Source of the DNA: an uncultured Bacteroidota bacterium
Lineage (GTDB): Bacteria; Bacteroidota; Bacteroidia; Flavobacteriales; BACL11
Direction of reading: 5' to 3'
Length of the DNA stretch: 64,000 nucleotides
Assembly: GCA_902587125.1 (NCBI GenBank)
Contig: CACIJW010000001.1
Coordinates: forward strand, 269,566 to 333,565
Positions within the stretch are counted from its first letter, which is position 1, and every line of letters starts with the position of its first letter. The notes below the pieces were generated by a model. It saw only the letters and a program-made list of their open reading frames with translations. It searched no databases and had not been told where the DNA came from. A program made the position numbers and the translations under genes. Positions 10,161-56,567 of the stretch are shown in pieces.

Positions 10161-12416
10161 ATGAGATATTTATTAGTGTTTTTTTTAATCTGTAATCAAA
10201 GTTTTTCTAACGAAATAGGAACGTGGAAAGATTACTATTCTTACAATGGTGCAAAAAAGGTTTTTTATAAAAACCATCAAACTTACTGTGTTACTAATAA
10301 TGGGTTGTTTAGCTGTAACAATAATAATGAACTCTTTCTTTATAATAAATTAAACTTTACAAGTGATTATGGAATTAACAATTTAGCTTTTGGCTCAAAC
10401 GCACTCATTATTTCATATGAAAATTCGAATATTGATATAATTGAGGATAATTTAACAATAAGTATCATGGACATAAAAAATTTAGAGATTGTAGGCAAAA
10501 GAATAAATAACTTAACTGTAATAGACAATGAGTTATTCGTTTCTGCATCTTATGGTATCTCTAAAATAGACTTAATTAAAAAAGAAATTAGTGACACATA
10601 TTATCTTTATAAAGATGGAGAATCTATTGAAATTAATGATTTTAAAAAAATAGACAATTATTATTTGGCAGCCACAAAGCGTGGAGTATTTAAAGCTGAA
10701 CAAAACTCATTACTAAACAATCCAAATAATTGGAACCAGATTGATACTAGCTCAAATGTTGTTAAAATAATTAATGGTTCCAGAATAATTTTTTTGTACA
10801 AACAGGGTTCAAATGCTAGATACAAAGTTTCAGAGGACTTGTCTAATATAAGTTCCGTATTATTTAATGCTAACAGCCTTAATGACATTACATACAGCAA
10901 TGACAAGTTTTTATTTGTCTACGAAAATTCAGTAGTTACTAGTGCTAATGGGGTCGACACACTTGACATATATTATGATAATTCACAACAAACAATATTT
11001 AAAAGCGCTTGCTATGACGATAAAAACAACATTTGGATAGCTGATAGCATAAATGGATTGATTAAAGTGACTAATGGTATTAAAGAATCAAACATTCTTC
11101 CAAATGGTCCAACTTCGAATAGTATGTTTGATTTAAATTTTTCAAACTCAAAACTGTATATGTCTCACGGTGGACACTCGAATTATAACGTTAACAATTT
11201 AAATTATCAGGGCGTGTCAATTCTTGAAAATAATTCTTGGGCAAATTATTCATCACAATTTCTTGGAAACAGTAGAGATATTGTTTCAAGCACAACTAAT
11301 GGTGATTACGAATATTTTGCATCATGGTATGATGGGATTTCAGAAATATCAAGTGATAATCTTTCAAACAAATTTGGATATAACAATACTAATGGAATAC
11401 TTGACACAACATACTACTCTAATAACAGAATCCAAATTTCAGACTTAAAGTTTGACAATTATGGTAATTTGTGGGGGTTAAATTCTCAAGTTCAAAAACC
11501 ATTATTTGTGAAAACACCACAAAATGAATGGTATTCTTACACATTAAATTTAGCTATTGAGGGATTATATTTTGATGAAATTTTAATAGATAACACAGGA
11601 CAAAAATGGGGCATAATTGCAAAGGGAAGTGGGAAGGGGTTATTTGTTTATGATGATAACAATACAATAGATAATCAATATGATGACCAATATAAGTTAA
11701 TCACAACAAGTGTAGGTCAAGGGGCGCTTCCAAATAACAATGTTAATTGCATAACAAAAGATAGAAACGGAGAAATTTGGGTTGGCACCTATGAAGGAAT
11801 TTGTGTTTTTAATAATCCCTCTCTGGTTTTCAGTGGTTATAATTTTGATGCACAACAAATATTAATTACAGAGGGCGATTATGGTCAATATCTTCTGAGT
11901 ACTGAGTCTGTAAAATGTATAGCTGTTGATGGAGGTAATAGAAAATGGATTGGGACACTTGGTGCTGGATTATATTTGTTATCAGATGATGGAACAGAAG
12001 AAATTCATCATTTTACAAGTGAAAACTCTCCTCTTCCGTCAAATAACATAATTGATATTGCTATAAATTCAAAAAATGGGGAAGTATTTATTGGCACAGA
12101 CAAAGGCTTATTATCATATACTAGCGACGCAACTGTCGGAGAGAGCTCTCAAAGTAATTTAAAAATCTTTCCAAATCCAGTCAGACAAAGCTACAACGGC
12201 CTGATCACAATAGACAAGCTTTACACTAATGCCAATATTAAAATCACTGATATGAACTTTAATTTGATTTATGAAGGCTTTGCAAATGGTGGTAGAGCAA
12301 CTTGGAATGGTAGAGATATTGATGGAAATAAAGTGCCAACGGGAGTGTATTTGATTTTTACTTCAGACGATATAGGAAATGAAAAGATTTCTGGAAAAAT
12401 ATTAATTATTAAGTAG
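10161..12416 (+). CDS. porZ: T9SS attachment-complex protein PorZ
   Basis: A 751-residue secreted protein with an N-terminal signal peptide (residues 1-17). Two seven-bladed-type beta-propeller halves follow, with repeats such as NNIWIADSINGLIKV, GEIWVGTYEGICVF and RKWIGTLGAGLYLL resembling two-component-regulator propeller blades. A C-terminal T9SS domain runs from about residue 661 (KIFPNPVR ... GVYLIFTSDD ... GKILIIK). Length and order match PorZ (about 776 residues in Porphyromonas gingivalis). PorZ is part of the PorU-PorV-PorQ-PorZ attachment complex that anchors cargo to anionic LPS outside the cell. The gene is directly followed by recO without a gap, an arrangement I recall from other Flavobacteriia. 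A generic propeller cargo protein is the alternative. Confidence 0.85.
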   Translation: MRYLLVFFLICNQSFSNEIGTWKDYYSYNGAKKVFYKNHQTYCVTNNGLFSCNNNNELFLYNKLNFTSDYGINNLAFGSNALIISYENSNIDIIEDNLTISIMDIKNLEIVGKRINNLTVIDNELFVSASYGISKIDLIKKEISDTYYLYKDGESIEINDFKKIDNYYLAATKRGVFKAEQNSLLNNPNNWNQIDTSSNVVKIINGSRIIFLYKQGSNARYKVSEDLSNISSVLFNANSLNDITYSNDKFLFVYENSVVTSANGVDTLDIYYDNSQQTIFKSACYDDKNNIWIADSINGLIKVTNGIKESNILPNGPTSNSMFDLNFSNSKLYMSHGGHSNYNVNNLNYQGVSILENNSWANYSSQFLGNSRDIVSSTTNGDYEYFASWYDGISEISSDNLSNKFGYNNTNGILDTTYYSNNRIQISDLKFDNYGNLWGLNSQVQKPLFVKTPQNEWYSYTLNLAIEGLYFDEILIDNTGQKWGIIAKGSGKGLFVYDDNNTIDNQYDDQYKLITTSVGQGALPNNNVNCITKDRNGEIWVGTYEGICVFNNPSLVFSGYNFDAQQILITEGDYGQYLLSTESVKCIAVDGGNRKWIGTLGAGLYLLSDDGTEEIHHFTSENSPLPSNNIIDIAINSKNGEVFIGTDKGLLSYTSDATVGESSQSNLKIFPNPVRQSYNGLITIDKLYTNANIKITDMNFNLIYEGFANGGRATWNGRDIDGNKVPTGVYLIFTSDDIGNEKISGKILIIK

Positions 12417-13109: not shown

Positions 13110-15216
13110 GATAAAATTAATATTTAGTTTTTTTCTTTTAGCTCAGTCAAATGATGTTTTAGGTCAAATTATCTTAAACAATTATGAGCTAGATTCAATT
13201 ACGATAATTTCTCCAAAATTTGAATTTAATAACAAAGAGTTTCAAAAAATAAAAAAAAAGGAATTAGAACTTGCTCCAATAAAAAATATTGATGATGTTC
13301 TACTCTCAAAGTTAAATGTGAGTATACAAAAAAGTCAATCAGGCTCGGGAAGCCCAAATGTTAGAGGTATGGAGGCTAGCAGACTACAATTAATATTCAA
13401 CGGAATTTCTTTAAACAATTGTATTACGAGAAGTGGGCACTCTCAAAATTTAAAATATGTAGATTATTTTAATATTGATGATATCTATACGTCATCCTCT
13501 AACAGTGTAAGCTTCGGATCTGGAATTATGAACTCTGCTATATATATAAACAGTGCTCCAATAAGAAAAAGTGATTCACATAATTCTAGTTTTTTTCAAG
13601 AATTCTCTTCAGCACTTAATAGTTCAAAAATGAATCTTAGTTCTGTTTATGTAATTGGTAAAGTCAATGCCTTTACTTCTGTATCAATTAATGATTACGG
13701 TCTTATAAAAGCAGGTGAAAATAGGACTCATGGATATGAAGATTGGGGTGACTTACCTCACATGTTTGAAAATGGAGGGCAAAAGTATACTCAAAATCAT
13801 TCTGTTTATTTGACGCAAAGGATTAGTAAAAACATCTCTGATTTTTCTATAGCAAATATAGACTTGTATAACTCTAATTTTAGTAAACTAAATAGAATCG
13901 ATAAATTAAATGATTTGAAGGAAGGGTCGCCAAAATTCGAAAAGTGGTATTATGGCCCTCAAAATTATTTTTTATCTAAACTGTCTTTATTAAACTACAA
14001 GAGTTATATGCTAAGTGACAAGTTTCAAATAACAACCGCTTATCAAAAGCTCAACGAATCTCGTCACAAAAAAAAATTTACAGATAACTTTCAAAGTAAC
14101 AGGTATGAAGATTTAGATGTTATTGATTCCAAAATGGATTTTAAAAAAAATTTAATAAAAAGCACTTTAAATTACGGTGTTAGTAATAGAGTAGAAATTT
14201 TAAATTCTAAAGCTAACCTTACTGATAGTATTTGCAATGCTTTTTATAATTCTACAAGGTACCCTGACGGTGGTAGTTATGTGGTTGATAACAGTATATA
14301 TGCCCAAATCCAATATAAGATAAATGATTTATTTTCTTTGACTCTTGGTGGTGGACTAAACGATTATTTTATTGGTTCTAAGTTTAATGATACTAGCATA
14401 ATTAATCTTGGCTATAAAAAGTTAGAACTCAAAAACTTATCAGTTATAAAAAACTTTTCATTAAACTACGCCAAATCCAATTTGGTAATAAACTTTAAAT
14501 TATTTGATGGATTTAGAAATCCAAATGTTGATGATATGACTAAAATTTTCTCAAAAGATGACAAAAATGTTGTTGTCCCAAATAACAATTTAAGTCCGGA
14601 GAAAGTAAGTAATTATGAAATTTCAACAACTTACATAACAAATAAATTTGAGCTTTCATTAAATAGTTATTTAAGCTTTATAAATAATGCTATTTCAAGA
14701 GAATTTTCACAAATCAATAACCAAGACTCAATATTATACGATGGTGAAATTATGAGAGTTCAAATGAATAAGAATATTGACAACATTACAATTTATGGAT
14801 TTGAAATTTTCACAAAAAGTCTGTTTGCTAATAATTACAGAATGGATAACAAGGTAATATTTACAGCTGGTCTAAAATCTAATAATGACCCATTAGCGCA
14901 TATTGCCCCGATTCAAATAAAGAACAACTTTAAAAAGAAAATTGGTGATTCTTATATCGCGCTGTCACACACATATTATGGTAAGAAAGATAGTGAAGAT
15001 TTTGACTTAGGTGGTATTGATAATTTAGATGAAGCAACAATTGACGGAATTCCATCTGTTAACTTTTTTGATGTTTCATATTTTAATCAGATTAATAAAA
15101 ATATAATTATTAATTTTTCCATAGAAAACATCTTTGATATACACCATAAATTTTTCTCCTCCGCAATTGTTAGCAGTGGAAGAAATTATGTCATATCTTT
15201 GCAAAAAAAGTTTTAA
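13102..15216 (+). CDS. TonB-dependent outer-membrane receptor
   Basis: A 704-residue protein with a signal peptide (about 1-22), an N-terminal plug (SGSPNVRGMEASRLQLIFNG at about 83-102, the typical plug core) and a long beta-barrel of alternating aromatic strands ending in a C-terminal Phe (YVISLQKKF). DSITIISPK just after the signal peptide may be a TonB box. No carboxypeptidase-D-like N-terminal domain and no SusD partner are present, so it is more likely a siderophore, metal or vitamin transporter than a SusC glycan porin. The substrate is unknown. It overlaps recO by 8 bp, and a secreted propeller protein follows 1 bp after its stop. Confidence 0.9.
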   Translation: MNKIKLIFSFFLLAQSNDVLGQIILNNYELDSITIISPKFEFNNKEFQKIKKKELELAPIKNIDDVLLSKLNVSIQKSQSGSGSPNVRGMEASRLQLIFNGISLNNCITRSGHSQNLKYVDYFNIDDIYTSSSNSVSFGSGIMNSAIYINSAPIRKSDSHNSSFFQEFSSALNSSKMNLSSVYVIGKVNAFTSVSINDYGLIKAGENRTHGYEDWGDLPHMFENGGQKYTQNHSVYLTQRISKNISDFSIANIDLYNSNFSKLNRIDKLNDLKEGSPKFEKWYYGPQNYFLSKLSLLNYKSYMLSDKFQITTAYQKLNESRHKKKFTDNFQSNRYEDLDVIDSKMDFKKNLIKSTLNYGVSNRVEILNSKANLTDSICNAFYNSTRYPDGGSYVVDNSIYAQIQYKINDLFSLTLGGGLNDYFIGSKFNDTSIINLGYKKLELKNLSVIKNFSLNYAKSNLVINFKLFDGFRNPNVDDMTKIFSKDDKNVVVPNNNLSPEKVSNYEISTTYITNKFELSLNSYLSFINNAISREFSQINNQDSILYDGEIMRVQMNKNIDNITIYGFEIFTKSLFANNYRMDNKVIFTAGLKSNNDPLAHIAPIQIKNNFKKKIGDSYIALSHTYYGKKDSEDFDLGGIDNLDEATIDGIPSVNFFDVSYFNQINKNIIINFSIENIFDIHHKFFSSAIVSSGRNYVISLQKKF
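15194..15201 (+). promoter_or_regulatory. Possible promoter inside the receptor gene end
   Basis: TATCTTTG fits the -7 consensus TAnnTTTG, 16 bp before the ATG at 15218. A TTG at 15167-15169 is 24 bp upstream, slightly more than the usual 17-23 bp spacing. It would let the propeller protein be transcribed apart from the receptor. Confidence 0.4.
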
Positions 15217-15217
15217 T

Positions 15218-17749
15218 ATGTTAAGGTTTTTATTGCTTTCAATATCTCTGTTTTTTACACAAAGTTTATATACTCAGGTTTGGGAAGATAACCTAAGAAA
15301 AACAAATACTTCTCCGTCTATAGAAGATAAAATAAATGCTTTCGATAAGTACAGAGAAAGCATACCTTATGAAAAAGGAAATGGATATAAGCCTTATGCC
15401 AGAGAGCTAGATTTTGTTGAGAAAAGAGTTTCAAATGATAGAACATTTCCTCATTTAGCCCTTTACAATGAGTGGCTTAAGGAAAAAGGTAAAAGTGAGC
15501 AATCAAGTAGCTCAAATTGGAAGCCACTTGGCCCAACAAACGTCCCAATAATTTTATCCAACGGCAAAAATCGCGGTGTTGGTAGAATTAATGCTATTGC
15601 TTTTGACCCATATGATCAGAATATTATTTATGTGGGATCTCCAGGTGGTGGATTTTGGAAATCAATCGATGGAGGGGCTAATTGGGTGACAACAAGCGAT
15701 GACTTACCAGTTCTCGGTGTCTCATCAATTGCTGTTGACCCAAACAATACAGATATAATTTATATAGCAACTGGTGATGCAAATGCTTCAGACACATACA
15801 GCATAGGAGTTTTGAAATCTATCGACCAAGGAGACACATGGAGCACCACAGGCCTTAGTTATAATGTTAGTGCAAACAAGAGGGTCAACAAAATATTGAT
15901 CAATCCCAATAACACAGATAGTGTTTTTGCTGCAACAAACACAAACATAATGTTAAGCGTTGATGGTGGTATAAGTTGGAATAATTGTGCTCCTTTAGGT
16001 AGATGGAGAGATATAGAGTTTATGCCAGGTAATCCTAATATTGTTTATGCAGCTAAACAATCAAGTGGCGGTTCAAACGTATACAGATCCTTGGACGGTG
16101 GCGGCAACTGGTCTGTCATTAATAATGGCGTTGCTTCATCAGGAAAATACAGGCCGCTTATTGCTGTTACACCAATTAATCCCAACGTAATTTATGCACT
16201 TTACTCAGCTTCTGATTATAGTTTTCATGGAATTTATAAATCGATTGATGGAGGAGATAATTGGAGTCTACAGTCTAATTCACCTAATATACTTGGAAGA
16301 GATACTGACGGTACAGGAACTGGAGGTCAATCTTGGTATGATCTTAGTTTAGGTGTTTCAAATAATGATGAGAATCATTTATTTGTTGGTGGAATAAACT
16401 TATGGGAAAGTACTGATGGAGGTGCAAATTGGACTATTGAAGCATCGAGCGGAAATGGTAATTATGCATACATGCATGTTGATCAGCATTGTCTAGAATT
16501 TCATCCAATAACTAATGTGCCTTATGCTGGAAATGATGGCGGTTTGTACAAGTATTTAGATAATTTAAACAATTGGATAGATATTAGCGATGGACTAGAA
16601 ATATCACAATTTTACAAACTAGGGCTTTCTGAATCAAATGCAAGTAGATTAATAGCAGGTGCGCAGGACAATGGAACTGAGATGCTAACAAACGGGGTGT
16701 GGGATGCAGTTAGAGGTGCAGACGGAATGGAATGCGCTATTGATCCTTATGATGAAGACCTGCTATATTCTTCATCTCAATATGGAGGGTTAAGAAAATC
16801 ATTTAATGGAGGAAATAATTGGGACAATATTAAACCTGTTTCGTATGATGGCGCATGGGTTACCCCCTACAAAATACATCCAAATAATAATAATATGATT
16901 GTTGCTGGATATGATGAGGTATACTTGTCTCTAACTTCTGGTGCGGTTTGGGACTCTATCTCATACAATGTTAGTGGAGGGCAGTCGGTTAGAACAATAG
17001 CTCTAGCTCCCTCTAACGAAGATTATATTTACGCTGCAACCTATTCTAGATTAATGAAGACAACCAACAGTGGTCAGTCTTGGACCAGCATAAAACCAGG
17101 GTTGCCTAATTATAATATCTCAGACGTTACAGTAAGTGATAACGACCCTAACAGGCTTTGGGTCACTATGTCGGAGTATAATGCATCTAATAAAGTTTTT
17201 GAGTCTAGTAATGGAGGTGCAACTTGGACAAATATAACAGGTACTAATCTTCCTAACCTTCCTGTTAACTGTATTGTTTATCAGGCTAATGCAAACGAAG
17301 ACCTCTATATTGGCACAGATATTGGTGTATATCATAAAGATAATACTATGAGCGATTGGGCGCCATATAAAAATGGACTTCCCAACGTTGTTGTCAATGA
17401 ACTTGAAATACATTATCCCACCAACAGAATTAGAGCTGCAACTTTTGGTAGAGGTGTTTGGGATAGCCCCTTAAATTCAAGCTCTACGTATGCAAACTCT
17501 GAAATAGTTAATAATTTAAATATTTACCCAAATCCAGCCAGCAATCAATTATACGTTAAATTAAAATCAAGTGATTTAGTTCATTTTGAAATTAGAAGTA
17601 TTTCTGGAAAAATCATAAAAGAGGGCACTCTTGCATCTAGTAACTATATAGATGTAAGCAGGATAAACTCAGGTACTTATATTATTAAAATTAGAGTTGG
17701 CAACTCATTATATCGTCAAAAAATCAGCATTACTCAAAACTCAAGATAG
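15218..17749 (+). CDS. Asp-box (BNR/sortilin-like) propeller protein with T9SS C-terminal domain
   Basis: The ATG at 15218 opens a clean signal peptide (MLRFLLLSISLFFTQSLYTQ), so the frame further upstream is not part of the protein. About 843 residues follow. They contain at least nine Asp-box repeats of the form S-x-D/N-G-G-x-x-W (SIDGGANW, SVDGGISW, SLDGGGNW, SIDGGDNW, STDGGANW, SFNGGNNW, SSNGGATW), giving one or two beta-propellers as in VPS10/sortilin-like and glycosidase-like proteins. The last ~80 residues (LNIYPNPASNQLYVKL ... GTYIIKIRVG) are a type A T9SS sorting domain. It is a secreted or surface-anchored cargo of unknown activity. The final 20 bp overlap the end of the DUF4837 gene on the opposite strand. 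Confidence 0.88.
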   Translation: MLRFLLLSISLFFTQSLYTQVWEDNLRKTNTSPSIEDKINAFDKYRESIPYEKGNGYKPYARELDFVEKRVSNDRTFPHLALYNEWLKEKGKSEQSSSSNWKPLGPTNVPIILSNGKNRGVGRINAIAFDPYDQNIIYVGSPGGGFWKSIDGGANWVTTSDDLPVLGVSSIAVDPNNTDIIYIATGDANASDTYSIGVLKSIDQGDTWSTTGLSYNVSANKRVNKILINPNNTDSVFAATNTNIMLSVDGGISWNNCAPLGRWRDIEFMPGNPNIVYAAKQSSGGSNVYRSLDGGGNWSVINNGVASSGKYRPLIAVTPINPNVIYALYSASDYSFHGIYKSIDGGDNWSLQSNSPNILGRDTDGTGTGGQSWYDLSLGVSNNDENHLFVGGINLWESTDGGANWTIEASSGNGNYAYMHVDQHCLEFHPITNVPYAGNDGGLYKYLDNLNNWIDISDGLEISQFYKLGLSESNASRLIAGAQDNGTEMLTNGVWDAVRGADGMECAIDPYDEDLLYSSSQYGGLRKSFNGGNNWDNIKPVSYDGAWVTPYKIHPNNNNMIVAGYDEVYLSLTSGAVWDSISYNVSGGQSVRTIALAPSNEDYIYAATYSRLMKTTNSGQSWTSIKPGLPNYNISDVTVSDNDPNRLWVTMSEYNASNKVFESSNGGATWTNITGTNLPNLPVNCIVYQANANEDLYIGTDIGVYHKDNTMSDWAPYKNGLPNVVVNELEIHYPTNRIRAATFGRGVWDSPLNSSSTYANSEIVNNLNIYPNPASNQLYVKLKSSDLVHFEIRSISGKIIKEGTLASSNYIDVSRINSGTYIIKIRVGNSLYRQKISITQNSR

Positions 17750-31061: not shown

Positions 31062-32456
31062 TTAAAAAACCTCAACACTTCTTATTCTTACTTTCCTCTC
31101 TAAAATATATTCTATATTATAGATTGCTTCATCTTTATTTTTTGGTATTTCTAAAGTGCTATTATATTCGCCAAAAGGCATTAACTTAATATCTATTTGG
31201 TCATTTTCAAAAAATTGTTGTAAAACGTAAGAGTCATAAGATTCGATATAATTTTTTACACTGGAGATTCTCCTTTTTGATAAAGATTGATTGTATAAAC
31301 TTTCAAATAATGGGCTTGCATAACCCTCAATTGTAATTGATATGCCTTTCCCCTGTCTAACTAAGGTAATTATCTGATCAATAAGATTATTGAATTTATT
31401 AAAGTTTTTAATCAATGAGTCTTCAAAAAAGCTAATGATTTGATTATTTCTGTCAAAATCATAATACTGGTTTTTTAAAAGATAATAATCAACGTAAGAC
31501 TCATAATAATCTTTATTAGTAGTTGTATCTAATGTACAGCAATCAGGCTGATCATTATGAAAATATAAATTAATTGGTAATTCAAATTTTTGACTAAAAT
31601 TTAATTTGTCATCTCTATTATAAGCTTTTTTTAAAATATAAATATCGCTACAACAACTTATAGAATCACTACAATTATCTCTACTGGAAGAAAAATAAGA
31701 AACAGTATCACAAATGACTGAAAAATACGTTTCATCATAGTTAGAGTTAATCTCTGAGTAAGATTTCGATGATTCCCATTTATTTAGAAAGCCTGATGAA
31801 TAATATATGTCAAAACCCATTGATAAGTTTTTGTTTGAACTGTAGTACATAAGTTCCCGCGAAGTGTCATAAAAAGGAGTTATTTCATCATATTCTGAGT
31901 TAATTGCAGGCCCTGCATTTATTGGAGAACTGAATGTTCCGTCGTCATTTTTAAAAGAAAACCATATGTCCAAACCGCCATAGCCTCCTTTCCTATCGCT
32001 GGCAAAAAATAAAACTTTTCTATTATTATGATCAACGAAGAATGGATTTGTATTATTATAATTTTTTTCGTTAATAGTTTTTGGAAGCAGATTAAACTTT
32101 CTAATATTTCTAATGTTTTCTAAATATGAGATCTTACATGATTTAGCATTTTCACAAATACTAAAATATCCGGAATTATTATTTTCGAAACAAAAGTTTG
32201 CAATTTTTTTATTTGAAAAGAAGTTAAGTTCTCTTGACTTAAACCATTCATCTTGTTTTTTTACCGCATAAGACAAATTAGATTTCTCATTACTTAGCTC
32301 CGTATAAATTGCTGTACTGTCGTTAATATACCTAAAGTTGAGTTCAGAATTTTTAATAGTATTGATACTGCCCTTTAGCTTTTCTATTTGCAAAGATTGC
32401 GAAGTAGAAAAAAAATATAGATGAAGAAAAATTAAAATTAAATATAACTTGGACAT
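31062..32456 (-). CDS. OmpA-family protein with PD40 repeats (adhesin-cassette partner)
   Basis: A 464-residue exported protein (signal peptide about 1-20). The central part has WD40-like PD40 repeats (NPFFVDHNNRKVLFFASDR, GGYGGLDIWFSFK, LMYYSSNKNLSMGFDIYYSS). The C-terminal ~110 residues form an OmpA-like peptidoglycan-binding domain (SITIEGYASPLFESLYNQ, then LSKRRISSVKNYI). Its place after a PorP/SprF gene and a gliding-CTD adhesin matches the sprB-sprF-ompA type clusters of Flavobacteriia, where such proteins tether the surface complex to the cell wall. It overlaps the PorP/SprF gene by 19 bp. Confidence 0.85.
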   Translation of the reverse strand: MSKLYLILIFLHLYFFSTSQSLQIEKLKGSINTIKNSELNFRYINDSTAIYTELSNEKSNLSYAVKKQDEWFKSRELNFFSNKKIANFCFENNNSGYFSICENAKSCKISYLENIRNIRKFNLLPKTINEKNYNNTNPFFVDHNNRKVLFFASDRKGGYGGLDIWFSFKNDDGTFSSPINAGPAINSEYDEITPFYDTSRELMYYSSNKNLSMGFDIYYSSGFLNKWESSKSYSEINSNYDETYFSVICDTVSYFSSSRDNCSDSISCCSDIYILKKAYNRDDKLNFSQKFELPINLYFHNDQPDCCTLDTTTNKDYYESYVDYYLLKNQYYDFDRNNQIISFFEDSLIKNFNKFNNLIDQIITLVRQGKGISITIEGYASPLFESLYNQSLSKRRISSVKNYIESYDSYVLQQFFENDQIDIKLMPFGEYNSTLEIPKNKDEAIYNIEYILERKVRIRSVEVF

Positions 32457-33376
32457 TTAACTATTGTATTTTGTTGTTGTTTTTTAAAAAGATAGTAAAT
32501 TAAAGTAAACTCAATAGCTCCATTATAATTGGTAGCTTTTGAAAACTCAGAAACATTAATGTCATATGTAAATGTAAACTCGTAGTTATTATGACGAAAC
32601 CCAGCTCCTGCAACTATTGCATCAGAAAATCTATAGCACAAAAGTGGTTTTATTATTGTTTTATTTTTAATAGTATTTCTAAAAATATATTTAAGATTCA
32701 AGCCTAGTAATGTTTCGTTCTGGCTGTTTTGAATAGAATGAAAAAAGAATGTTTCATAATTTATATTGTTAAGATTCAAATTATAAAAGTATGCGAAATT
32801 ATATTTCAATTGTAATTTATCATCTAATGAAATTAATGAAATATTAGGTTTATTCAAATGATTTATGGATAGTCCAATGTTGTGAGAATGATTATTATTA
32901 AAAACAAAAGAGTAATTAGTTCCAAGGGTAAAGTCAAAGTAGTTTTTTTTTGAGCTTGAAAAATATTCATATTGTTCAAAATTCAGTTCGGAAAAATTAA
33001 CTGACCTTTGGTTAAAAGAAAATCCCGCTCCAAATGAAAGGCCTTCTACTAACATAATATCTTTTGAGAAAAAAAAATTCAAACTATTATTATTTAGGCT
33101 AGCATTTCCAGAATTATCAGATAAGAAATTAATGCCCAATGACCCTATATTTCGAATTTCTTTGATATAGACAGTTGCTGAAAATGTTTTAAATGGTTCT
33201 GCAACACTTTGCCATTGACTCCTAGATTGAACTTTAAATGCATAATCGCTAACAATTTTTTGAGTAAAACATGGATTTATTAGTAGTTCGTTTTTTGATA
33301 TTTGTGAAAAATGAGTGTCTTGCGATCTACAAATAATTGATGAAAATATTAACGTGCAAAAAATAATTTTTTTCAT
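32438..33376 (-). CDS. PorP/SprF-family T9SS outer-membrane protein
   Basis: A 312-residue predicted beta-barrel with a signal peptide (about 1-18) followed by QDTHFSQISKNELLINPCFT. This is the conserved start of PorP/SprF proteins, which usually read Q-x-x-HFSQ-x..., NP-x-x-TG. Many amphipathic strands follow. These proteins are needed for secretion or surface display of adhesins carrying type B (gliding-type) C-terminal domains. It lies directly after such an adhesin with a 4-bp overlap, so the two are almost certainly a cognate pair. Confidence 0.9.
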   Translation of the reverse strand: MKKIIFCTLIFSSIICRSQDTHFSQISKNELLINPCFTQKIVSDYAFKVQSRSQWQSVAEPFKTFSATVYIKEIRNIGSLGINFLSDNSGNASLNNNSLNFFFSKDIMLVEGLSFGAGFSFNQRSVNFSELNFEQYEYFSSSKKNYFDFTLGTNYSFVFNNNHSHNIGLSINHLNKPNISLISLDDKLQLKYNFAYFYNLNLNNINYETFFFHSIQNSQNETLLGLNLKYIFRNTIKNKTIIKPLLCYRFSDAIVAGAGFRHNNYEFTFTYDINVSEFSKATNYNGAIEFTLIYYLFKKQQQNTIVKCPSYI

Positions 33377-36300
33377 CTAATAAGGTTAATATTTCCTTTA
33401 TATATAAATTCTTTATTTCCGTAACATCTTATATCTAGGTAAAAGTCAAAAACCTGATTTGTCAAGACTTTTCCATCGTGTCTTCCATCCCAATAGTCAA
33501 AAATATTTTTTGATTCAAAGACTTTTTGGCCCAGGCGATTGTAAATTAGAATATGAAACCTTTCTACTACACCGTCATAATCTATGACTCTATAAAAATC
33601 ATTTATCTGGTCCCCATTTGGAGAAAATGCATTTGGAATGTTTATTTTTGATAAATCGCAATTATAATTTCTTACCTTAACAAATATAGAGTCTTCTTCA
33701 ACACATCCATTATTATTTACTTCAACAAAAAAAATTTTATCTGAATAAAGATTTAATGTAAAAGATTTGTTTTGATTGTTATTTGACCATGAATACGGAA
33801 AGTCAGTTAACAGACTAAGTGTTACTTCTTGGCCGTAGAATATTATAGAGTCACTTGCCCATAGTGAGTCAATAGTTGGTCTCTGAATAACTTCCACGTA
33901 AATGGAGTCATTAATTTTACAACCTAGATTATTGATTACTTCAACTTCATAATACTTTGAAAATTCTGGAACAACATATACTTGAGAGGAATCTGTTCCA
34001 AATGATGAGACGCTTTCATTCCAGTTGTAAGATTGAATTGGGTTTCCTGGCACTAAATTATTAACTATTATCAAACTACTGTCTCCAAAGCAAATACTAT
34101 TATCGCCATCTAAAGATATATCAATATTTTCTGACTTAATTGAGACACTATCACTACTAAAGCAATTCCCATTATCAGCTCTAACAAAATATGTCATAAC
34201 CTGTATCGCTTTAATACTATCTCCCGAACTTAAAATATTGGTAAAATTAACATCACTTGACCAAATAAAATTTGCAACACTATCATTTGAAACTGCAGTT
34301 AAAATAATTGAATCATTACAGTAAGATGTGTCATCACTAGCCAATACACTAATGTCATCTACATTAACTTTTTGAATTATCGTGTCAAAACAGTTGTTAC
34401 TATAGTTAATTACTAAAGTATATTCTATTGTGGAATCAATATTGGTAAATGGCCTTTGAACATTGTAAGAGCTTAATCCGTTAATGGGATTCCAAAAGTA
34501 ACTCGAATTAATTGAAATTGGATTGTTTATACCAATTCTAATTTTTTCATGCTTGCATTTGTAAAGCTCAGGAGCTGATTTTTTTTGATTACTTAGTATA
34601 TACAATTCTTTTTGTATTGTATCAGAAATATTGCATGAAAGTGAGTCAATTGAAATAAGTCTAACCAAATAGTTTCCTGTCGTATCATATGTATGTGTGG
34701 GTGAGGGTTGATTACTTGAGTTACCATCACCAAAATCCCAATAAAATAATGTATTAGAAATAGTATCTGTAATATTATTAAACTGAATTGTCAAATCGCA
34801 CCCTATTAAGGGTGCTTGAAAATCTGAAATAATAAGAGGTGTATTCATGTCAAATTTAAAAACTCCATTATTACAGTTTGGGCTATTATTTGTTGTTGAA
34901 ACAGCTCCAGGATTTGGCTTCACTGGAAAGTCATTATTTCCATCACAGCCTGCACAAACTGACTGATATATTACACCTTTATTATCAAATCTTGATGTGC
35001 CACCATCAACATGCTCTCTGCTTACATTTCCCCCAAAAAATGTTGCATAATCAACATTATCCATGCCTTCACTGATGACCATGAAATAAAAATCATTGCC
35101 ATCTGTTGTAATTTGATAAGCACTGTCTGAAGTAGGAAGGTTTAATGTTGAAAGCTGCCCGTTTATACCACTTCCCCAACCTGAAAGATAATAACTGTTA
35201 CATAAATCAACCATAAATGCTGTTGGTGATATGTCAGGAGTTCCTTTACCTGAACCTACCGCAGATGACCTTATTATTGAGGATAAACTACTTGAAAGAG
35301 TCGAAATAAACTGCCCTGACTTTTGTGTAGATATTGTTGAGTTTTTAATAAAAAAATTATTGGTGTCATTTGTTTGTCCTAAGACGTGAACTTGATCATT
35401 TTTGGTAACATCTATAAAAAAAACCTGGTCATATGAGTCAGTACCAAAGTAGGTAGAGAAAAAGATACTATCTGCATTATTATCAATCGTAGTTATAAAA
35501 CCATCTGGACTCAGTCCATTAGAACTATTATAACTTTGCTGAAACGCTAAAGGTGTTGTGTTTAAATCTGGCGATGTTGTTCCCCCTCCAAATACAATAT
35601 CATTATTTCTATTAAAATCAATAGAGTAAATACAATCGTCGCCTGAACCACCAAAATACGTGCTCCAAATAATATTTGATAAGTGCCTGTCTAGCTTAAA
35701 AACACAACCTTCTAATCCAGAGCTTAAATTAGATTGGATTGGGTTAAGCGTGGGGAAGTCTGTGGATCTAGTACAAGTTCCTACTACTATATTGTTATCG
35801 TTATCAATTTCTATTTCTCCCCTCACCTCATCAGCGTAATTAAAAGTAAGTTTTGATGAGTTATTTAAACCATCATTTAAAGACCCCCCAAAAAAAGTTG
35901 ATGCAACGAGTTGCCCCCCACTAGTGCTTAATTTTGAAATAATTATATCAGATCCGTTTGGAAAGCTAGCTCCTATTCCATTAGGCACAAAATTAGTTCC
36001 TCCATTAAAAGTTGTATCAAAGCTGGATTCAGTAGTGGGAAAATCTTCCGATCCAGTTGTTCCAAAAATATAAAGCTCTCCTAAATCACTAACTATCATG
36101 CTATGAGGTAATTCATCAAAACTCCCCCCTAGATAAGTTGAATATATTCTTTGTGTGCCAGTATTATTGTATTTAGTTATTGCTATATCTGTTCCGCCAT
36201 TGCCAACACCTCCATTAAAGTTTAGCTGATAAGCCCCCAGTGTGGTTGGATATCCTGGTCCAAATGAAATACTTCCAGCATATAGGTTTCCCTGTTTATC

Positions 36301-37065
36301 ATAAGTAGCAGTATATCCAAAATTATCAGCTGAAGAACCTGAGTAGGTTGAAAAAACTAGTTCTGGATCAATTACTAAGTCATAATTCTTATCGTATCCA
36401 TTTGGAAAGGAAAAGCTAACAACATTATTTTCTAGTTGATATTTACAGTCTACATAGATTTTTTTACCGTTAATTATTTGATAAACTTCAGGTATTTGCT
36501 CCTCTACTTCAGTAAATGAAGCTTTTAGAATGATCGTGTTATTTTCAGTTAATTTTATGTCATCTACATAATTATATTCAATCTGTATACTTTCAGGATT
36601 ATGGTTTTTTTCAACATGAATATCATATTTTATATTATTTCCTTCAAAATAAATTACATAGAATATTCCTTCGTAAATAGGTCGCTTAATTTTATTGTAA
36701 GTTTTTACATTCTCAACCCAATTTTCTTTAGAACCTATGTAATAATTTTCATAGTAATTAGCTGCATCAATATAATCTATCTCGTTTGATTTTAGTGAAT
36801 TTATGAAGCTAACCTTGTATGAGTGAGCATCAATATAGCTGTCTTCAGAAAACCCCTCGTGTATATCTCTTAATTTATTTTTATCAAATAAGTTATATGT
36901 AAAGCCTCCCGTTTCAAGAAAAAAAGCCCCTTGAGAAAAATTAGCTTTTGAAAAAACTTTCTTTGGATGCTGACCGTCATTTTTAATAAAGTTATTTTGT
37001 GAAAAAGATGTAGAAGTTAACAAAAGAGTTAAAAAAAAAGAAATTAATTTTTTATCAAAGATCAT
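33373..37065 (-). CDS. Giant surface adhesin: DUF7948, SBBP propeller, PKD and gliding-type C-terminal domain
   Basis: A 1230-residue secreted protein. Order: signal peptide (about 1-22); DUF7948-like N-terminal domain (FIKNDGQHPKKVFSKANF onward, to about 230); SBBP-type beta-propeller blades (about 235-690: FSTYSGSSADNFGYTATYD, YSTYLGGSFDELPHSM, STYFGGSGDDCIYSIDF, ATFFGGNVSREHVDGG); a PKD domain (FYWDFGDGNSSNQPSPTHTY, about 775-800); Ig-like Cys-containing repeats; and a type B gliding-motility C-terminal domain (INIPNAFSPNGDQINDFYRV ... RLGQKVFES). The last domain marks T9SS export through PorP/SprF-type partners, encoded next. A surface adhesin role is inferred from architecture; the ligand is unknown. 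It begins inside the 3' end of an M23 peptidase gene (11-bp overlap). Confidence 0.9.
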   Translation of the reverse strand: MIFDKKLISFFLTLLLTSTSFSQNNFIKNDGQHPKKVFSKANFSQGAFFLETGGFTYNLFDKNKLRDIHEGFSEDSYIDAHSYKVSFINSLKSNEIDYIDAANYYENYYIGSKENWVENVKTYNKIKRPIYEGIFYVIYFEGNNIKYDIHVEKNHNPESIQIEYNYVDDIKLTENNTIILKASFTEVEEQIPEVYQIINGKKIYVDCKYQLENNVVSFSFPNGYDKNYDLVIDPELVFSTYSGSSADNFGYTATYDKQGNLYAGSISFGPGYPTTLGAYQLNFNGGVGNGGTDIAITKYNNTGTQRIYSTYLGGSFDELPHSMIVSDLGELYIFGTTGSEDFPTTESSFDTTFNGGTNFVPNGIGASFPNGSDIIISKLSTSGGQLVASTFFGGSLNDGLNNSSKLTFNYADEVRGEIEIDNDNNIVVGTCTRSTDFPTLNPIQSNLSSGLEGCVFKLDRHLSNIIWSTYFGGSGDDCIYSIDFNRNNDIVFGGGTTSPDLNTTPLAFQQSYNSSNGLSPDGFITTIDNNADSIFFSTYFGTDSYDQVFFIDVTKNDQVHVLGQTNDTNNFFIKNSTISTQKSGQFISTLSSSLSSIIRSSAVGSGKGTPDISPTAFMVDLCNSYYLSGWGSGINGQLSTLNLPTSDSAYQITTDGNDFYFMVISEGMDNVDYATFFGGNVSREHVDGGTSRFDNKGVIYQSVCAGCDGNNDFPVKPNPGAVSTTNNSPNCNNGVFKFDMNTPLIISDFQAPLIGCDLTIQFNNITDTISNTLFYWDFGDGNSSNQPSPTHTYDTTGNYLVRLISIDSLSCNISDTIQKELYILSNQKKSAPELYKCKHEKIRIGINNPISINSSYFWNPINGLSSYNVQRPFTNIDSTIEYTLVINYSNNCFDTIIQKVNVDDISVLASDDTSYCNDSIILTAVSNDSVANFIWSSDVNFTNILSSGDSIKAIQVMTYFVRADNGNCFSSDSVSIKSENIDISLDGDNSICFGDSSLIIVNNLVPGNPIQSYNWNESVSSFGTDSSQVYVVPEFSKYYEVEVINNLGCKINDSIYVEVIQRPTIDSLWASDSIIFYGQEVTLSLLTDFPYSWSNNNQNKSFTLNLYSDKIFFVEVNNNGCVEEDSIFVKVRNYNCDLSKINIPNAFSPNGDQINDFYRVIDYDGVVERFHILIYNRLGQKVFESKNIFDYWDGRHDGKVLTNQVFDFYLDIRCYGNKEFIYKGNINLIR

Positions 37066-38281
37066 AAAGTGTTTCTGATTGTAACAACTGTAACAAACTG
37101 TCTTTAAGAAGCATATAATTCTCTTTATTTTCTTTTTTTATTGGCTCTCCAGCAGGAAGTTTTTCTCTATAGGGATCTACTTGTCTTCCATTTTTCCAAA
37201 ACCTATAACAAACATGTGGTCCGGTTGCTAGTCCTGTACTACCAACATAACCAATGACATCTCCTTGTTTAACAAATTTTCCTTTTTTTATACCTGAAGC
37301 TATTTTACTCATGTGTAAATATTGAGTTGAGTATTTTGTATTGTGTTTAATTTTAACATAATTGCCGTTATTTCTGCTGTATGAGGCTCTGCTAATCGTG
37401 CCGTTTGCTGTTGCCATTATAGGGGTTCCTGTGGGGGCTGCATAGTCGGTGCCAAAATGACCTTTCCACTGTCCAGTTACGGGGTGTTTTCGTCTTTTAC
37501 TGAATCTTGATGAAATTCTACTGTATTTAATGGGTGCCCTTAAAAATGTTTTTCTCAGGTTGTTCCCCTCGTGATCAAAAAAATCTCCGTAAAGCTCATT
37601 TTCTTCAAAATAAAATGCGTAAAAATTATTTCCTGAATGTGTGAAAGAACTTGCTTTCACATCTCCTATTCCAATAAACTCTCCTTCAACATATTTTTCT
37701 TCAAACAATACTGTAAAGTAATCTCCTTTTTGAATTTTAAAAAAATCTAATGTCCAAGCATATATTGCTTCAAGCTCCACAACTAAAGCTGGGCTTAAGT
37801 TATTATTTATTAAAGCGTTCCATAATGAGCTTTCAATAGTGCCACTGGACAGTCTGTTTTTTATCTCAATGGGTTTTTTACCTACATAAACCTTAATATC
37901 ATTTCTAATATCGAATACGACATATTCTGCGAGTGATTTTTCATAAATAAATACCTGTGCAGTTTCATTTGTGTCTTTTGAGCATAAGACTGTGTATTTT
38001 TTTCCGGGAACAGCTCTTCTAAAATCAAAAATATCTTTTGACTTTTTTACAATTCTATTAATTTGATTATGATCAATATGATGTAAATATAATATCTCAC
38101 CTAGCACCTGCCCATCTTTTATCGTTCCACTTTTTATGCTAAACGAATCTAAATCAAACCCGAATTTTATGTTTGGCTCTTTAATTTCTTCCTCAAAAGT
38201 AATTTTAATCTTGTCTGTGTTGTTAACTAAATAAAAGATGGTAGATAAAACAAGAACTATTAGAATTAAATATCTTTTCAC
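37055..38281 (-). CDS. M23-family peptidoglycan endopeptidase with Cys in the HxH position
   Basis: A 408-residue protein with an N-terminal membrane anchor (about 4-20), an OapA/LysM-like or substrate-recognition middle part, and a LytM domain (about 270-385). The first zinc motif is intact (HFGTD, near 278). The second reads GPHVCYRFW (about 352-360): the family normally has H-x-H, here H-V-C, so the third zinc ligand would be Cys. I recall this variant from other Bacteroidota but could not check. Its stop overlaps the adhesin start by 11 bp, suggesting peptidoglycan editing is co-expressed with adhesin display. Confidence 0.88.
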   Translation of the reverse strand: MKRYLILIVLVLSTIFYLVNNTDKIKITFEEEIKEPNIKFGFDLDSFSIKSGTIKDGQVLGEILYLHHIDHNQINRIVKKSKDIFDFRRAVPGKKYTVLCSKDTNETAQVFIYEKSLAEYVVFDIRNDIKVYVGKKPIEIKNRLSSGTIESSLWNALINNNLSPALVVELEAIYAWTLDFFKIQKGDYFTVLFEEKYVEGEFIGIGDVKASSFTHSGNNFYAFYFEENELYGDFFDHEGNNLRKTFLRAPIKYSRISSRFSKRRKHPVTGQWKGHFGTDYAAPTGTPIMATANGTISRASYSRNNGNYVKIKHNTKYSTQYLHMSKIASGIKKGKFVKQGDVIGYVGSTGLATGPHVCYRFWKNGRQVDPYREKLPAGEPIKKENKENYMLLKDSLLQLLQSETLYDL

Positions 38282-39801: not shown

Positions 39802-39940
39802 CTTTGAATTCCTTCATTCCCTTTCCTAAGCCCTTCATAAGCTCTGGGATTTTTTTTCCACCAAATAAAATTAAGACAACTAGAACTATAAGAACCACTT
39901 GCCATGGTCCAATCATACCTAAGATAGTCATTGATTTCAT
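39761..39940 (-). CDS. tatA: Sec-independent translocase subunit TatA
   Basis: A 59-residue protein that is easily missed because it is short. It reads [14 protein letters not shown], one transmembrane helix (about 15-27), then the family hinge and amphipathic helix [18 protein letters not shown] followed by EFKDATKE. The FG-x4-PE and EFK motifs are textbook TatA. It forms the pore-like component of the twin-arginine pathway for folded proteins; no tatC lies in the window. Its 3' 41 bp overlap, in another frame, the longest possible gatA. It is 33 bp downstream of the EnvC-like gene. Confidence 0.93.
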
Positions 39941-39953
39941 AATTTAATTTTAG

Positions 39954-39961
39954 CAAATTTA
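39954..39961 (-). promoter_or_regulatory. Possible -7 element for tatA-gatA
   Basis: On the minus strand this reads TAAATTTG, an exact TAnnTTTG match, 13 bp before the tatA ATG and within the 33-bp gap after the EnvC-like gene. No good -33 TTG. Confidence 0.35.
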
Positions 39962-39973
39962 ACAATTTGTTGC

Positions 39974-53043: not shown

Positions 53044-55635
53044 TTAAATAGCCGGGTAGTTTTTTTTATAAAAATCTTTGTAGCCCTGTAAGTCTCTGTC
53101 TTTATAAAAATCTGAAAAGTTGTCTTTTGAAATTATTATTTTTTCAAAATTTAATTTTAACATTTCCTTCATAACTCCCTTGTCTGCTAAGGCCCTTAGC
53201 TCATAGTTTAGTGACCCATCATAATCCATATATGTTTTTATAATTAAGATGTGTTGGTCTAGACCCATCATCAATGAGCTAACCTCAATGGTTTGGGTGG
53301 AAAATTCTTTTTTGTTGAAGTCTGAAAAAACACTCATTAAATAGTTCATGTCGCTGTTTTCTTTTGGCATTACAAAAACTATCATGTGGTCATTGAGTAA
53401 ATTTAGCTTATATGGGCTTTTGTTAACTGCCAAGTAGTTTGATTCTTGTATAGATTCAGGGTTTTCAATGCTCTTTAACACCTCAGTATATTCTTCTCTC
53501 TCTTTTTGACCCAGGTCTTTGTTGCTTATAATTTTATTAATTTCTGCTATGGCTGAAGTAGTATCACCAAGCCTGTACATTGAAAGGGCTCTCAAAAAAA
53601 TCTCTTTATCAATCAGCGTTCGTGTTTTTATATTTGCAGTTAAGCTAATTACCTCTTTGTGGTTATCATTTAAAAAGCCGTCTATAATTGTTGAATAGTA
53701 CTCCTCATCTTTCGCTCTTTGTTTTTCACCACTAGAGACATAAACAGAATCGGCAAGAATTTTTGCATACTTTGACTTTGGAAAATTTGACATTATGATT
53801 TCTTTGGTCTCACGCGCAAGACTCTTTTTTTCTTTATTAACATGGTTTAAATATATGTTGTAGTAGGCGAGAGGAACATAAATTGTGTCAGAACTATATC
53901 TTCTGAAGATTTCGTAAAAAGTAGCGTTGCTTTTTTTATAGTCATCGAAATAGTCTCTGTAAATAATTGCTACTTGATATAGCGCTTCTTTTATTTTTTT
54001 ATTTGAAGCGATTACTTCTTTTTCGCTTTTTGGAATCTTAGAAAGATAGTAATTGGGGTTTTTCTTATCACTTAGTTGTTTTAGCTCATTTAACTGACCG
54101 CTTGTTAGTGTCGTGTCTTCCCCAAACTCATTTAAAACACCCTTGTCTCTCCTCCTCCAATCATCCTCTAATTTTCTTTTTCCCCACGTTTTTCTAAACT
54201 CAGAAAGCCCAAAGCTAAGTGTTGAGGGGTTGTAAAAGTACCACTTACCTCCTGATGTTTTGCTTCCAAACTGTTCTCTTGATCCATATCGGTTGTTTTC
54301 ATACATACTTTGTTCTGTAAGCATTTTCTGCTCTTTTTCTTTTTTTTCATTTTCGATTATGTTGTTTATAATCTCATTAACCAGTTCGAGCTGAATATTT
54401 TTTGGTAGTACTGAAAGAGCTATTAAGCTGTCTTGCAGGTAAACAATGTCTAGGTTAGTAATGAGTTTGTTTAGGTTTTGAGAGGTTTCAGAAATTTCAG
54501 CATATTTTTCGTCATTTTTATCTACATAAAAGACAGTACTGTCATAGTAAAGCCCGGCTTTTCTATATTCCTGCTTCCCGTAGTATATCTTAGCGAGGCT
54601 ATAAAAAGAGAGGGCTTTTTGAACGTCGTTTTCAAGACTGTATTTTGTTGAATTTAAAAGACTATTTATGCAGGCTGTTGTATCCATTTCAGCAATATCA
54701 ATTTCAGAAATGGTGAAATAAATTTGATCAAGATATTCTTTGTTTTTATCATCTTTCAACATTTTTTTTAAAGCTTCTTTTGACTTCCTTACGTTGATTC
54801 CGGTTTGAATTGAAGATTTTGCCAAATTCATTTTAGCGTTAAAAGTCATTTCGTAATCTGAGCTTTCTCTAATTACGTCTTCAAAAAGTTCGTACGCGTT
54901 TTTTTGATTTCCCACTTTTTGATAAACTTGTGCTAAAATATATTTGAACCTAGAAGCTTGTTTTTTGTTTGAAAGCTTAATACATTGCTTTAATTCATCT
55001 GATGCAAGAGAGTAGTTTTGTTGTTTTAAATAACAGTCTGCTATCGAACTATGCTTAAATAGTTTTGTTTTTTTATTTAGTGTTCTTTTTTTATTAAGCT
55101 CATCTATTAACACCTCGCAAGCTAAAAAGTCGTTTTTTTCAGAGTAAGCTCTTAAAGCAAAGATTTTGGCCTCATATGCTGTCTCTGTCTTTTTGAACTC
55201 ATCTATAATAAACAAAAATGTCTTTAACGCCTCATCAAATTCTCCTTTGTAAAAATAGGCTTTACCAATCATTAAGTAGTTGTCGTCTATCCACTTGCAA
55301 TACTCTTTCCCCTTTATTTTCATCGAATGCCTTTGAATAACTACAGAGCCTTTTCTTATCGCTTTATCCATATAAGAGTGCGCTGATTTGGACGCAGAAA
55401 GGTCTTTTTCTTTAAAAACAGTAATTATTTGACTGTAATCTTCTTCTGAATTTTGGTTGATTTTATCAAGCCCTTTTTTAATGCTTTCTTTGCCATTAAA
55501 GTACCCATTATATTTTGCTGTTGTATTGTGATATTGTCTGTTTACCCATCTGTTTTTCTTTGTTGAACAAGATGACAAGAACATAACAAGAAGCAATGAT
55601 TGTATAAGGAGCTGTTGTGTTGTTCGAGAATTCAT
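53044..55635 (-). CDS. porW: T9SS periplasmic lipoprotein PorW/SprE
   Basis: An 863-residue lipoprotein: the signal ends in FLSSC (Cys about 23). Just after it comes the family hallmark NRQYHNTTAKYNGYFNGKESI. A long TPR region follows (about 110-420), then KWYFYNPSTLSFGLSEFRK and a WGKRKLEDDWRR stretch (about 465-495), which I recognise from SprE/PorW, and further TPRs to the C-terminus. PorW/SprE is an outer-membrane lipoprotein of the periplasmic side needed for T9SS function and, in gliders, for motility. It lies upstream of bactofilin and the atp genes and is divergent from an M23 peptidase gene. Confidence 0.88.
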   Translation of the reverse strand: MNSRTTQQLLIQSLLLVMFLSSCSTKKNRWVNRQYHNTTAKYNGYFNGKESIKKGLDKINQNSEEDYSQIITVFKEKDLSASKSAHSYMDKAIRKGSVVIQRHSMKIKGKEYCKWIDDNYLMIGKAYFYKGEFDEALKTFLFIIDEFKKTETAYEAKIFALRAYSEKNDFLACEVLIDELNKKRTLNKKTKLFKHSSIADCYLKQQNYSLASDELKQCIKLSNKKQASRFKYILAQVYQKVGNQKNAYELFEDVIRESSDYEMTFNAKMNLAKSSIQTGINVRKSKEALKKMLKDDKNKEYLDQIYFTISEIDIAEMDTTACINSLLNSTKYSLENDVQKALSFYSLAKIYYGKQEYRKAGLYYDSTVFYVDKNDEKYAEISETSQNLNKLITNLDIVYLQDSLIALSVLPKNIQLELVNEIINNIIENEKKEKEQKMLTEQSMYENNRYGSREQFGSKTSGGKWYFYNPSTLSFGLSEFRKTWGKRKLEDDWRRRDKGVLNEFGEDTTLTSGQLNELKQLSDKKNPNYYLSKIPKSEKEVIASNKKIKEALYQVAIIYRDYFDDYKKSNATFYEIFRRYSSDTIYVPLAYYNIYLNHVNKEKKSLARETKEIIMSNFPKSKYAKILADSVYVSSGEKQRAKDEEYYSTIIDGFLNDNHKEVISLTANIKTRTLIDKEIFLRALSMYRLGDTTSAIAEINKIISNKDLGQKEREEYTEVLKSIENPESIQESNYLAVNKSPYKLNLLNDHMIVFVMPKENSDMNYLMSVFSDFNKKEFSTQTIEVSSLMMGLDQHILIIKTYMDYDGSLNYELRALADKGVMKEMLKLNFEKIIISKDNFSDFYKDRDLQGYKDFYKKNYPAI

Positions 55636-55739: not shown

Positions 55740-56567
55740 TTGGAAAAAAAGAATAAGTTTTTTCGCTTTGCAATAATAAATGACAATAGCCTAGAGGAGA
55801 TTTTTAATATTAAGTTTTCTAGAGCTAGTCTATTGTGGCTAACATCTGCTGTTTTACTAGCCGTGTCTGTTGTTTTTGTATTACTACTTGGCTACACCCC
55901 CTTACGAAACCTGATACCTGGAAAGTCTAAAACTCATGTGCAAAATGAATTAATAACGATGATTCAAAAGGCCGACTCTCTTGAAAAAAGTCTTGGCAAC
56001 TATGGCCTTTACACAAAAAATCTAAAAAAAGTTCTTTCAGACAGTGTTTCTCTTGATAGTGTTAAGGATCTGTTTGAAGAGGGTTTTATAGTAAAAGGGG
56101 TTGATTTTAAACCTTCTGTTGAAGATTCTATTTTAAGGGCTGAGGTAGAGGCTGAAGAAAGCATAAGTTTAAACTCTAATTTAAAGGAAAAAAAACTGAG
56201 CGGCTTTTTTATAAAGCCTGTTGACGGGTTGATTACCGAAGAGTTCAATAAAAAGATTGGTCATTTTGGAGTTGATGTTGTTTCAAAAAAAGGAGCATTT
56301 ATTTCTTCCATTGATGACGGAATGGTTCTGTTTAGCTCATGGACTCACGAATTTGGGTATGTTCTTATTATCAAGCACCAAAACAGCTTTATATCATTTT
56401 ACAAGCATAACTCTGAGGTTTTTAAATCAAAAGGGGACTATGTAAAGTCTGGTGAAACAATCGCTATTATTGGAAATTCTGGAAAATATTCTACTGGGCC
56501 TCACTTGCATTTTGAGCTTTGGAAAGGCTCTTCGCCTGTAAACCCAATGAATTATATTTTATTTTAA
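55740..56567 (+). CDS. M23-family metallopeptidase (canonical LytM)
   Basis: A 275-residue protein begun at a TTG; the only upstream alternatives before an in-frame stop are poor. An N-terminal cytoplasmic stub FFRFAIINDNSLEEIFNIK precedes a transmembrane helix (about 30-50), a short coiled region and a LytM domain with both zinc motifs intact: HFGVD (about 175-179) and GPHLHFELW (about 252-260). It should cut peptidoglycan cross-bridges. The next gene starts directly after the stop codon (TAAATG). Unlike the two other LytM proteins here, its active site is canonical. Confidence 0.9.
   Translation: MEKKNKFFRFAIINDNSLEEIFNIKFSRASLLWLTSAVLLAVSVVFVLLLGYTPLRNLIPGKSKTHVQNELITMIQKADSLEKSLGNYGLYTKNLKKVLSDSVSLDSVKDLFEEGFIVKGVDFKPSVEDSILRAEVEAEESISLNSNLKEKKLSGFFIKPVDGLITEEFNKKIGHFGVDVVSKKGAFISSIDDGMVLFSSWTHEFGYVLIIKHQNSFISFYKHNSEVFKSKGDYVKSGETIAIIGNSGKYSTGPHLHFELWKGSSPVNPMNYILF

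Follow-up and report, generated by a model that had tools for sequence, protein, structure and literature searches.

For the anchoring of type B substrates of the type IX secretion system (T9SS) on the surface of Bacteroidota cells, the two best models are the moving GldK track and the static PorE anchor. For Porphyromonas gingivalis, a PorE-PorP-PG1035 complex with wall anchoring is described (PMC9143113), built from a type B substrate, a PorP-like barrel and a periplasmic PorE-like protein with PD40 and OmpA-like domains. Cognate shuttles and static complexes are likewise reported (PMC12618676), including static Flavobacterium johnsoniae operons (e.g. Fjoh_3952-3951-3950) in which substrate, SprF-like shuttle and PorE homolog follow one another. 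The mobile gliding adhesin SprB is a type B substrate as well, with a barrel of the PorP/SprF family encoded after it, and conserved cysteines in the periplasmic C-tails of SprF and PorG bond GldK Cys343 (PMC12635249). We analysed a stretch of 64,000 nucleotides (hereafter, the window) from an uncultured Bacteroidota bacterium of the Flavobacteriales (contig CACIJW010000001.1, positions 269,566 to 333,565), in which four minus-strand genes encode, in reading order, an M23 endopeptidase, a type B surface protein, a PorP/SprF-type protein and a PorE-like protein (Table 1). We consider it likely that the last three genes form a T9SS type B cassette of the stationary, wall-anchored PG1035-PorP-PorE kind, not of the mobile SprB-SprF kind, and that the upstream M23 gene, which became their neighbour, encodes a general endopeptidase. 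A conserved set of cysteines shared by two of the cassette products is apparently an undescribed element of this known kind of cassette.

The locus was compared with 148 genomes of the order, among them families labelled f1 (the family of the window), f8, f9, f13 and f15, and with a phylum set of 80 loci kept from at least 583 stretches in which relatives of the surface protein were confirmed, with titles naming Flavobacteriales, Bacteroidales, Chitinophaga, Cytophagaceae, Saprospiraceae and others. Surface protein, PorP and OmpA-type genes follow in this order in many of the 80 loci, and the three-gene type B cassette that a first-pass annotation of this DNA had proposed is real and phylum-wide. 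Within f1 and f9, the surface protein and PorP genes overlap by 4 bases in every locus with PorP visible (29/29), and the PorP and OmpA-type genes overlap by 19 bases in 18 of 25 loci. The same annotation had named the unit sprB-sprF-OmpA, which is inaccurate because no PorE-like gene adjoins sprB and sprF (PMC9143113, PMC12618676); moreover, SprF ends in Cys-x-Cys (PMC12635249), whereas the window PorP has a single tail Cys, a PorE-like neighbour and a cysteine pair on that periplasmic partner. A further difference from PG1035-PorP-PorE is that the three window genes are consecutive and overlapping, while the canonical PorE is a separate gene of the same genome (G000:C12, 614.3 bits).

T9SS markers were found in the tested genomes (SprA 5/5, GldJ 5/5, GldM 4/5); GldM was not found in the assembly of the window and is present in the genus mates G003 and G004. 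It had also been stated that no sprB-like gliding genes surround the locus, which is literally true, yet the T9SS genes PorZ and PorW/SprE lie in the window. In the mechanism that we propose, the T9SS would export the 1230-residue DUF7948/propeller protein, the PorP-like barrel would hold its C-terminal domain, and the PorE-like PD40/OmpA protein would link the barrel to the periplasmic side, probably the wall; the M23 endopeptidase may share a transcript with the cassette, yet this mechanism does not need it.

Profile searches with Pfam and NCBIfam agreed with the names first given to the genes (M23, type B adhesin, PorP/SprF, OmpA/PD40). The PorP protein carries a PorP_SprF domain and matches TIGR03519 with 120 bits (cut-off 90.55). 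Its PorE-like partner matches PD40 (21.7 bits, cut-off 20.9), with the OmpA profile under its cut-off (20.2 bits, cut-off 27.2); the AlphaFold model (predicted local distance difference test score, pLDDT, 86.8) shows the strands of a propeller and, at the C-terminus, a domain of alpha/beta type, backing an OmpA-type end, and Foldseek returned propellers, TolB included. A PDB sequence search found no relative of this protein. Two loci (L052 and L055) have an extra open reading frame (ORF) of 263-280 amino acids between the PorP and PorE-like genes, the L052 copy being without a Pfam match.

The surface protein combines DUF7948, SBBP, PKD, Ig_7 and CHU_C domains (PF13585, 51.3 bits, cut-off 27; TIGR04131, 42.1 bits, cut-off 35). 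It had been called a giant adhesin, a description that does not suit its 1230 residues, since two other CHU_C ORFs of the same genome reach 2202 and 2483. In an alignment of 15 sequences the other 14 share 42-50% identity with the window copy, the propeller being especially conserved, and the ratio of nonsynonymous to synonymous substitution rates (dN/dS) was 0.12-0.14 in three within-genus comparisons, similar to rpoN. Judging from these values, the protein is strongly conserved and under purifying selection, and we rejected the idea of a rapidly evolving adhesin. A structure model of residues 1-780 (mean pLDDT 84.8) places the propeller at approximately 233-742, and its top match among solved structures is CylK (Z 35.8, 392 residues, root-mean-square deviation 2.4, 20% identity), ahead of the next unrelated match at Z 27.8. 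CylK is a cyanobacterial alkylating enzyme, and the match is a resemblance of fold that implies nothing on chemistry. A PDB sequence search with the surface-protein profile gave no relative, and our literature search found no publication on DUF7948.

The cysteine set is the feature in which this cassette stands out. Cys308 of PorP lies four residues from the C-terminus, in the end KCPSYI, and the tail Cys is present in all 26 f1 and f9 PorPs with an aligned column; across the phylum set, a Cys lies within the last six residues in 40 PorPs out of 41, the exception (L155) being a 248-amino-acid ORF at a contig edge. On the partner, the second residue of the vicinal pair Cys268-Cys269 is conserved in 56/56 sequences and the first in 55/56, and in a set of 37 PorE-like sequences the pair makes up two of just ten invariant columns. 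In the model it closes a loop of low confidence (residues 263-266 below 50), just ahead of the strand 271-277. Both features go together: when PorP and OmpA-type neighbours were paired, 39 of the 42 pairs carried both, three carried neither and not a single one had one alone. The three lacking both represent a second type of cassette, and their genomes contain the DUF7948 cassette as well. A survey of PorP in 12 genomes added 12 further PorE-neighboured pairs, of which one (L236, family f14) has both features; the other 11 come from two genomes of family f3 and lack the PorP tail Cys as well as the PorE Cys-Cys, which would set the window cassette apart from the static F. johnsoniae operons if f3 is, as we guess, the Flavobacterium family. 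The match set that includes a sister PorP group comprised 58 rows (54 regions, two more in L052 and L056, and two inside L212 and L237). Unlinked PorE paralogs at 12 loci, canonical PorE included, showed no mature Cys-Cys. In nine genomes, the surface protein and a tail-Cys PorP occur with no PorE gene behind; the tail Cys is kept in all nine, and seven of these genomes carry a Cys-Cys PorE elsewhere.

From this pattern, and by analogy with the SprF-GldK disulfide, we tentatively propose, with somewhat less than even confidence, that across Bacteroidota the DUF7948 cassette encodes a covalent trans-envelope clamp, in which the PorP tail Cys (Cys308) would form a disulfide with the Cys pair of the PorE-like propeller (Cys268/Cys269), fixing the surface protein to a periplasmic anchor. 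If true, the clamp would parallel the SprF-GldK bond, except that the paired cysteines sit on the opposite partner and that the anchor is static and not moving, and it would extend the recently described principle of inter-protein disulfides from gliding to static anchoring. A literature search over titles and the starts of abstracts returned no report of a PorP-PorE disulfide. The conserved cysteines on both cassette partners make the PorP-PorE contact testable in one gel.

One competitor is that the PorP tail Cys binds the gliding/T9SS track (GldK), as do the C-tail cysteines of SprF and PorG that bond GldK Cys343 (PMC12635249), and that the Cys-Cys of the PorE-like protein is unrelated to it, serving structure or redox chemistry; we hold this to be possible, though well short of an even chance. 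It draws on the sister PorP group (L217, L218, L220, L225, L226, L227, L229 and L230), whose C-terminus reads CPxF and whose cysteines stand at positions -4 and -16; this group has the tail Cys without a PorE neighbour, adjoining GldJ in G000, G013 and G057, so that GldK is possible as the partner. It accounts less well for the restriction of Cys-Cys to cassette PorE-like proteins and their unlinked counterparts, with absence from the other PorE paralogs, and for the joint absence of both features in the 11 f3 pairs and the three pairs of the second type.

Besides the sister group, several observations weigh against a PorE-type anchor clamped to PorP. Paired PorPs form one clade (support 98/88), and the pairs therefore represent one evolutionary event, not independent replicates. 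Two of the nine genomes with no PorE gene behind PorP, G169 and G173, showed no Cys-Cys PorE among the matches inspected (three of seven and four of ten, respectively). The PorE-like protein scores only 48.8 bits with the NCBIfam PorE model NF052230, whose cut-off is 600. Compared with P. gingivalis PorE it is shorter (464 amino acids, no TPR match), carries the vicinal Cys-Cys, shows no lipobox Cys at its N-terminus in the alignment and has Ser for Asp576. The peptidoglycan-binding side chains of PorE are Asp, Asn and Arg, Asp576 among them (PMC7192894); they correspond to Ser381, Asn389 and Arg396, two of three being kept. Of 54 cassette-linked rows that have a letter at the Asp576 site, 53 show Ser and one shows X, against Asp in 9/9 other paralogs, so wall binding by the PorE-like protein may be weaker than, or different from, that of PorE. 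As to co-transcription, scans for sigma-70-like promoters (57 sites, 56.0 expected), terminators (5, 3.3 expected) and the Bacteroidota-type promoter TTTG/TANNTTTG (9, 7.88 expected) all stayed at chance level, and neither favour nor rule out an internal promoter.

The first-pass annotation had further cast the M23 endopeptidase as an active component of the unit, one that opens the wall, an idea for which our comparison gave no direct support. The protein is a predicted MepM/ShyC-type endopeptidase found order-wide: it matches Csd3_N2 (60.2 bits, cut-off 27) and Peptidase_M23 (110.3 bits, cut-off 28.7), a layout common to the murein DD-endopeptidases MepM, ShyA and ShyC, and it can be aligned with 2gu1 along most of the sequence and with ShyA at residues 160-401. 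HxxxD and HxH are the metal motifs of M23 enzymes; here HxxxD reads HFGTD (His275/Asp279), and the other site histidines are 323 and 356. Unlike those enzymes, it attains none of the NCBIfam equivalog cut-offs and its last motif, HxH, reads HVC, with Cys358 at the position of the third zinc-ligand His; Cys can also bind zinc. This Cys is present in 42 of 49 aligned orthologs, and five f1 genomes (L079, L082, L084, L086 and L092) have HLH instead, differing in the catalytic domain while keeping the N-terminal part and the position of the gene.

Gene neighbourhoods were examined for 48 of 51 full-length M23 matches (the others being that of the own genome and two at contig edges, G022 and G033). 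The order-wide searches for M23 and the surface protein in the 148 genomes used cut-offs of 1e-120 and 1e-50, so that absence of a match there means absence of a strong one; L120 and L092 are one genome, and some rows are thus counted twice. M23 is followed by the surface protein gene in 31 of the 48 loci (29 in f1, two in f9) and in none of the 17 of other families, of which at least three (L088, L094 and L095) end too soon after M23. Among genomes with both genes, the two are adjacent in all of f1 (21/21) and f9 (10/10) and in none of f8 (0/19), f13 (0/1) or f15 (0/1); the separation in relatives that would have spoken against the annotators' proposal was therefore seen in three families and not in the family of the window or in f9. 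In the phylum set, M23 lies upstream of the cassette in 15 of the 80 loci, all close relatives, some loci being cut on the upstream side (e.g. L116, L139, L158, L168, L171 and L172).

That M23 is nevertheless a dedicated part, opening peptidoglycan locally so that the export machinery or the PorE-like protein can be set in place at the site of cargo export, seems to us unlikely. The adjacency in 31/31 f1 and f9 genomes persists although the genes before the pair (GatA, Dxs, LeuS) and those behind it change, and the five genomes that swapped the catalytic domain kept the position, all of which fits a dedicated role. However, full-length M23 occurs in 104 of the 148 genomes and the surface protein in only 52, none of the 21 genomes outside f1 and f9 with both genes has them adjacent, and the M23-surface protein junction varies from -14 to +27 (one start artefact aside) whereas the surface protein-PorP junction is constant; moreover, M23 is the sole full-length MepM-type match in the genome of the window, which suggests a general role. 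Because it occurs in far more genomes than the surface protein and is single-copy in this one, we read M23 as an endopeptidase of general function whose neighbour is specific to the lineage, probably joined once in the common ancestor of f1 and f9. The M23 proteins of these families form a single clade (support 99/98) and the adjacency is confined to them, so one ancestral join explains the pattern. Outside f1 and f9, M23 is often near LeuS, DUF3108 and tryptophan-2,3-dioxygenase genes, and a LeuS-like gene still precedes M23 in f9 as well as in L057, L058 and L060, three genomes of f1 (recognised by size and place, only the L053 copy having been profile-scanned), so the cassette likely joined an older M23 neighbourhood. 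That the pair stayed together while its surroundings changed hints that the arrangement is of some use, perhaps through joint expression. Appealing as it looks at first sight, the link to M23 is a neighbourhood specific to this lineage and no part of a common mechanism; M23 stands elsewhere in other families, and the cassette occurs without it.

Regarding the layout, our ORF list reproduced exactly the coordinates of the four consecutive minus-strand genes and their overlaps of 11, 4 and 19 bp. Overlap was rejected as proof of a functional unit: 20 of the 38 other same-strand neighbour pairs of the window overlap too, and overlap alone is therefore weak evidence here. That the unit is self-contained, as had been suggested, is not supported, since gatA ends 53 bases upstream of M23 and the gene run thus starts before it, with gatA, or DUF3108 and gatA in most relatives. 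All starts are longest-ORF starts, and gaps at L059, L062, L078, L137 and L132 are start artefacts. We also rejected, as very improbable, the idea that the conserved tail Cys-Pro of PorP only reflects the start codon of the following gene, which overlaps it, and plays no role in the protein: the codons do overlap in the window, but the 39 Cys-bearing pairs have the -19 overlap in only 16 cases, another overlap in 12 and none in 11, so that overlap fails to explain the Cys, which the nine PorPs without a PorE gene behind also keep.

Table 1. Features of the four-gene locus and other T9SS genes of the window (window coordinates).
Feature	Position	Strand	Description and basis
M23 endopeptidase, MepM/ShyC-type (predicted)	37055-38281	-	408 aa, GTG start, hydrophobic N-terminus, Csd3_N2 and M23 domains; ORF and Pfam
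M23 Cys358 codon	37208-37210	-	Site of a zinc-ligand His in canonical M23 (HxH); alignment, Cys in 42/49 aligned orthologs
T9SS type B surface protein ("adhesin")	33373-37065	-	1230 aa; DUF7948, SBBP-type propeller (~233-742), PKD, Ig_7, CHU_C/TIGR04131 C-terminal domain
PorP/SprF-type outer-membrane shuttle	32438-33376	-	312 aa; TIGR03519 above cut-off, tree
PorP Cys308 codon	32453-32455	-	C-tail KCPSYI, among last residues; overlaps start codon of PorE-like gene
PorE-like periplasmic protein	31062-32456	-	464 aa; PD40 propeller and OmpA-like domain, without lipobox Cys
Vicinal Cys268-Cys269 codons, propeller loop of PorE-like protein	31650-31655	-	Conservation and AlphaFold model
PorZ	10161-12416		NF052228 above cut-off
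Type A T9SS cargo with Por_Secre_tail	15134-17749
PorW/SprE	53044-55635		NF052312 above cut-off

The source assembly comprises 1.54 Mb in 36 contigs, and the window has a guanine plus cytosine content of 31%. Among the named genomes of the collection, the nearest relative is the uncultured Bacteroidetes genome AG-898-D03 (L096), with 91% identity over the surface protein, and further close relatives are Flavobacteriales/Cryomorphaceae assemblies, largely metagenomic, whose labels we read as indicating a marine habitat for the group. Elsewhere in the window, PorW/SprE is divergent from a third M23-domain gene (55740-56567), at 104 bases from it, and a small TatA-like reading frame (39802-39973, read by eye) lies between an EnvC-like M23 gene and gatA.

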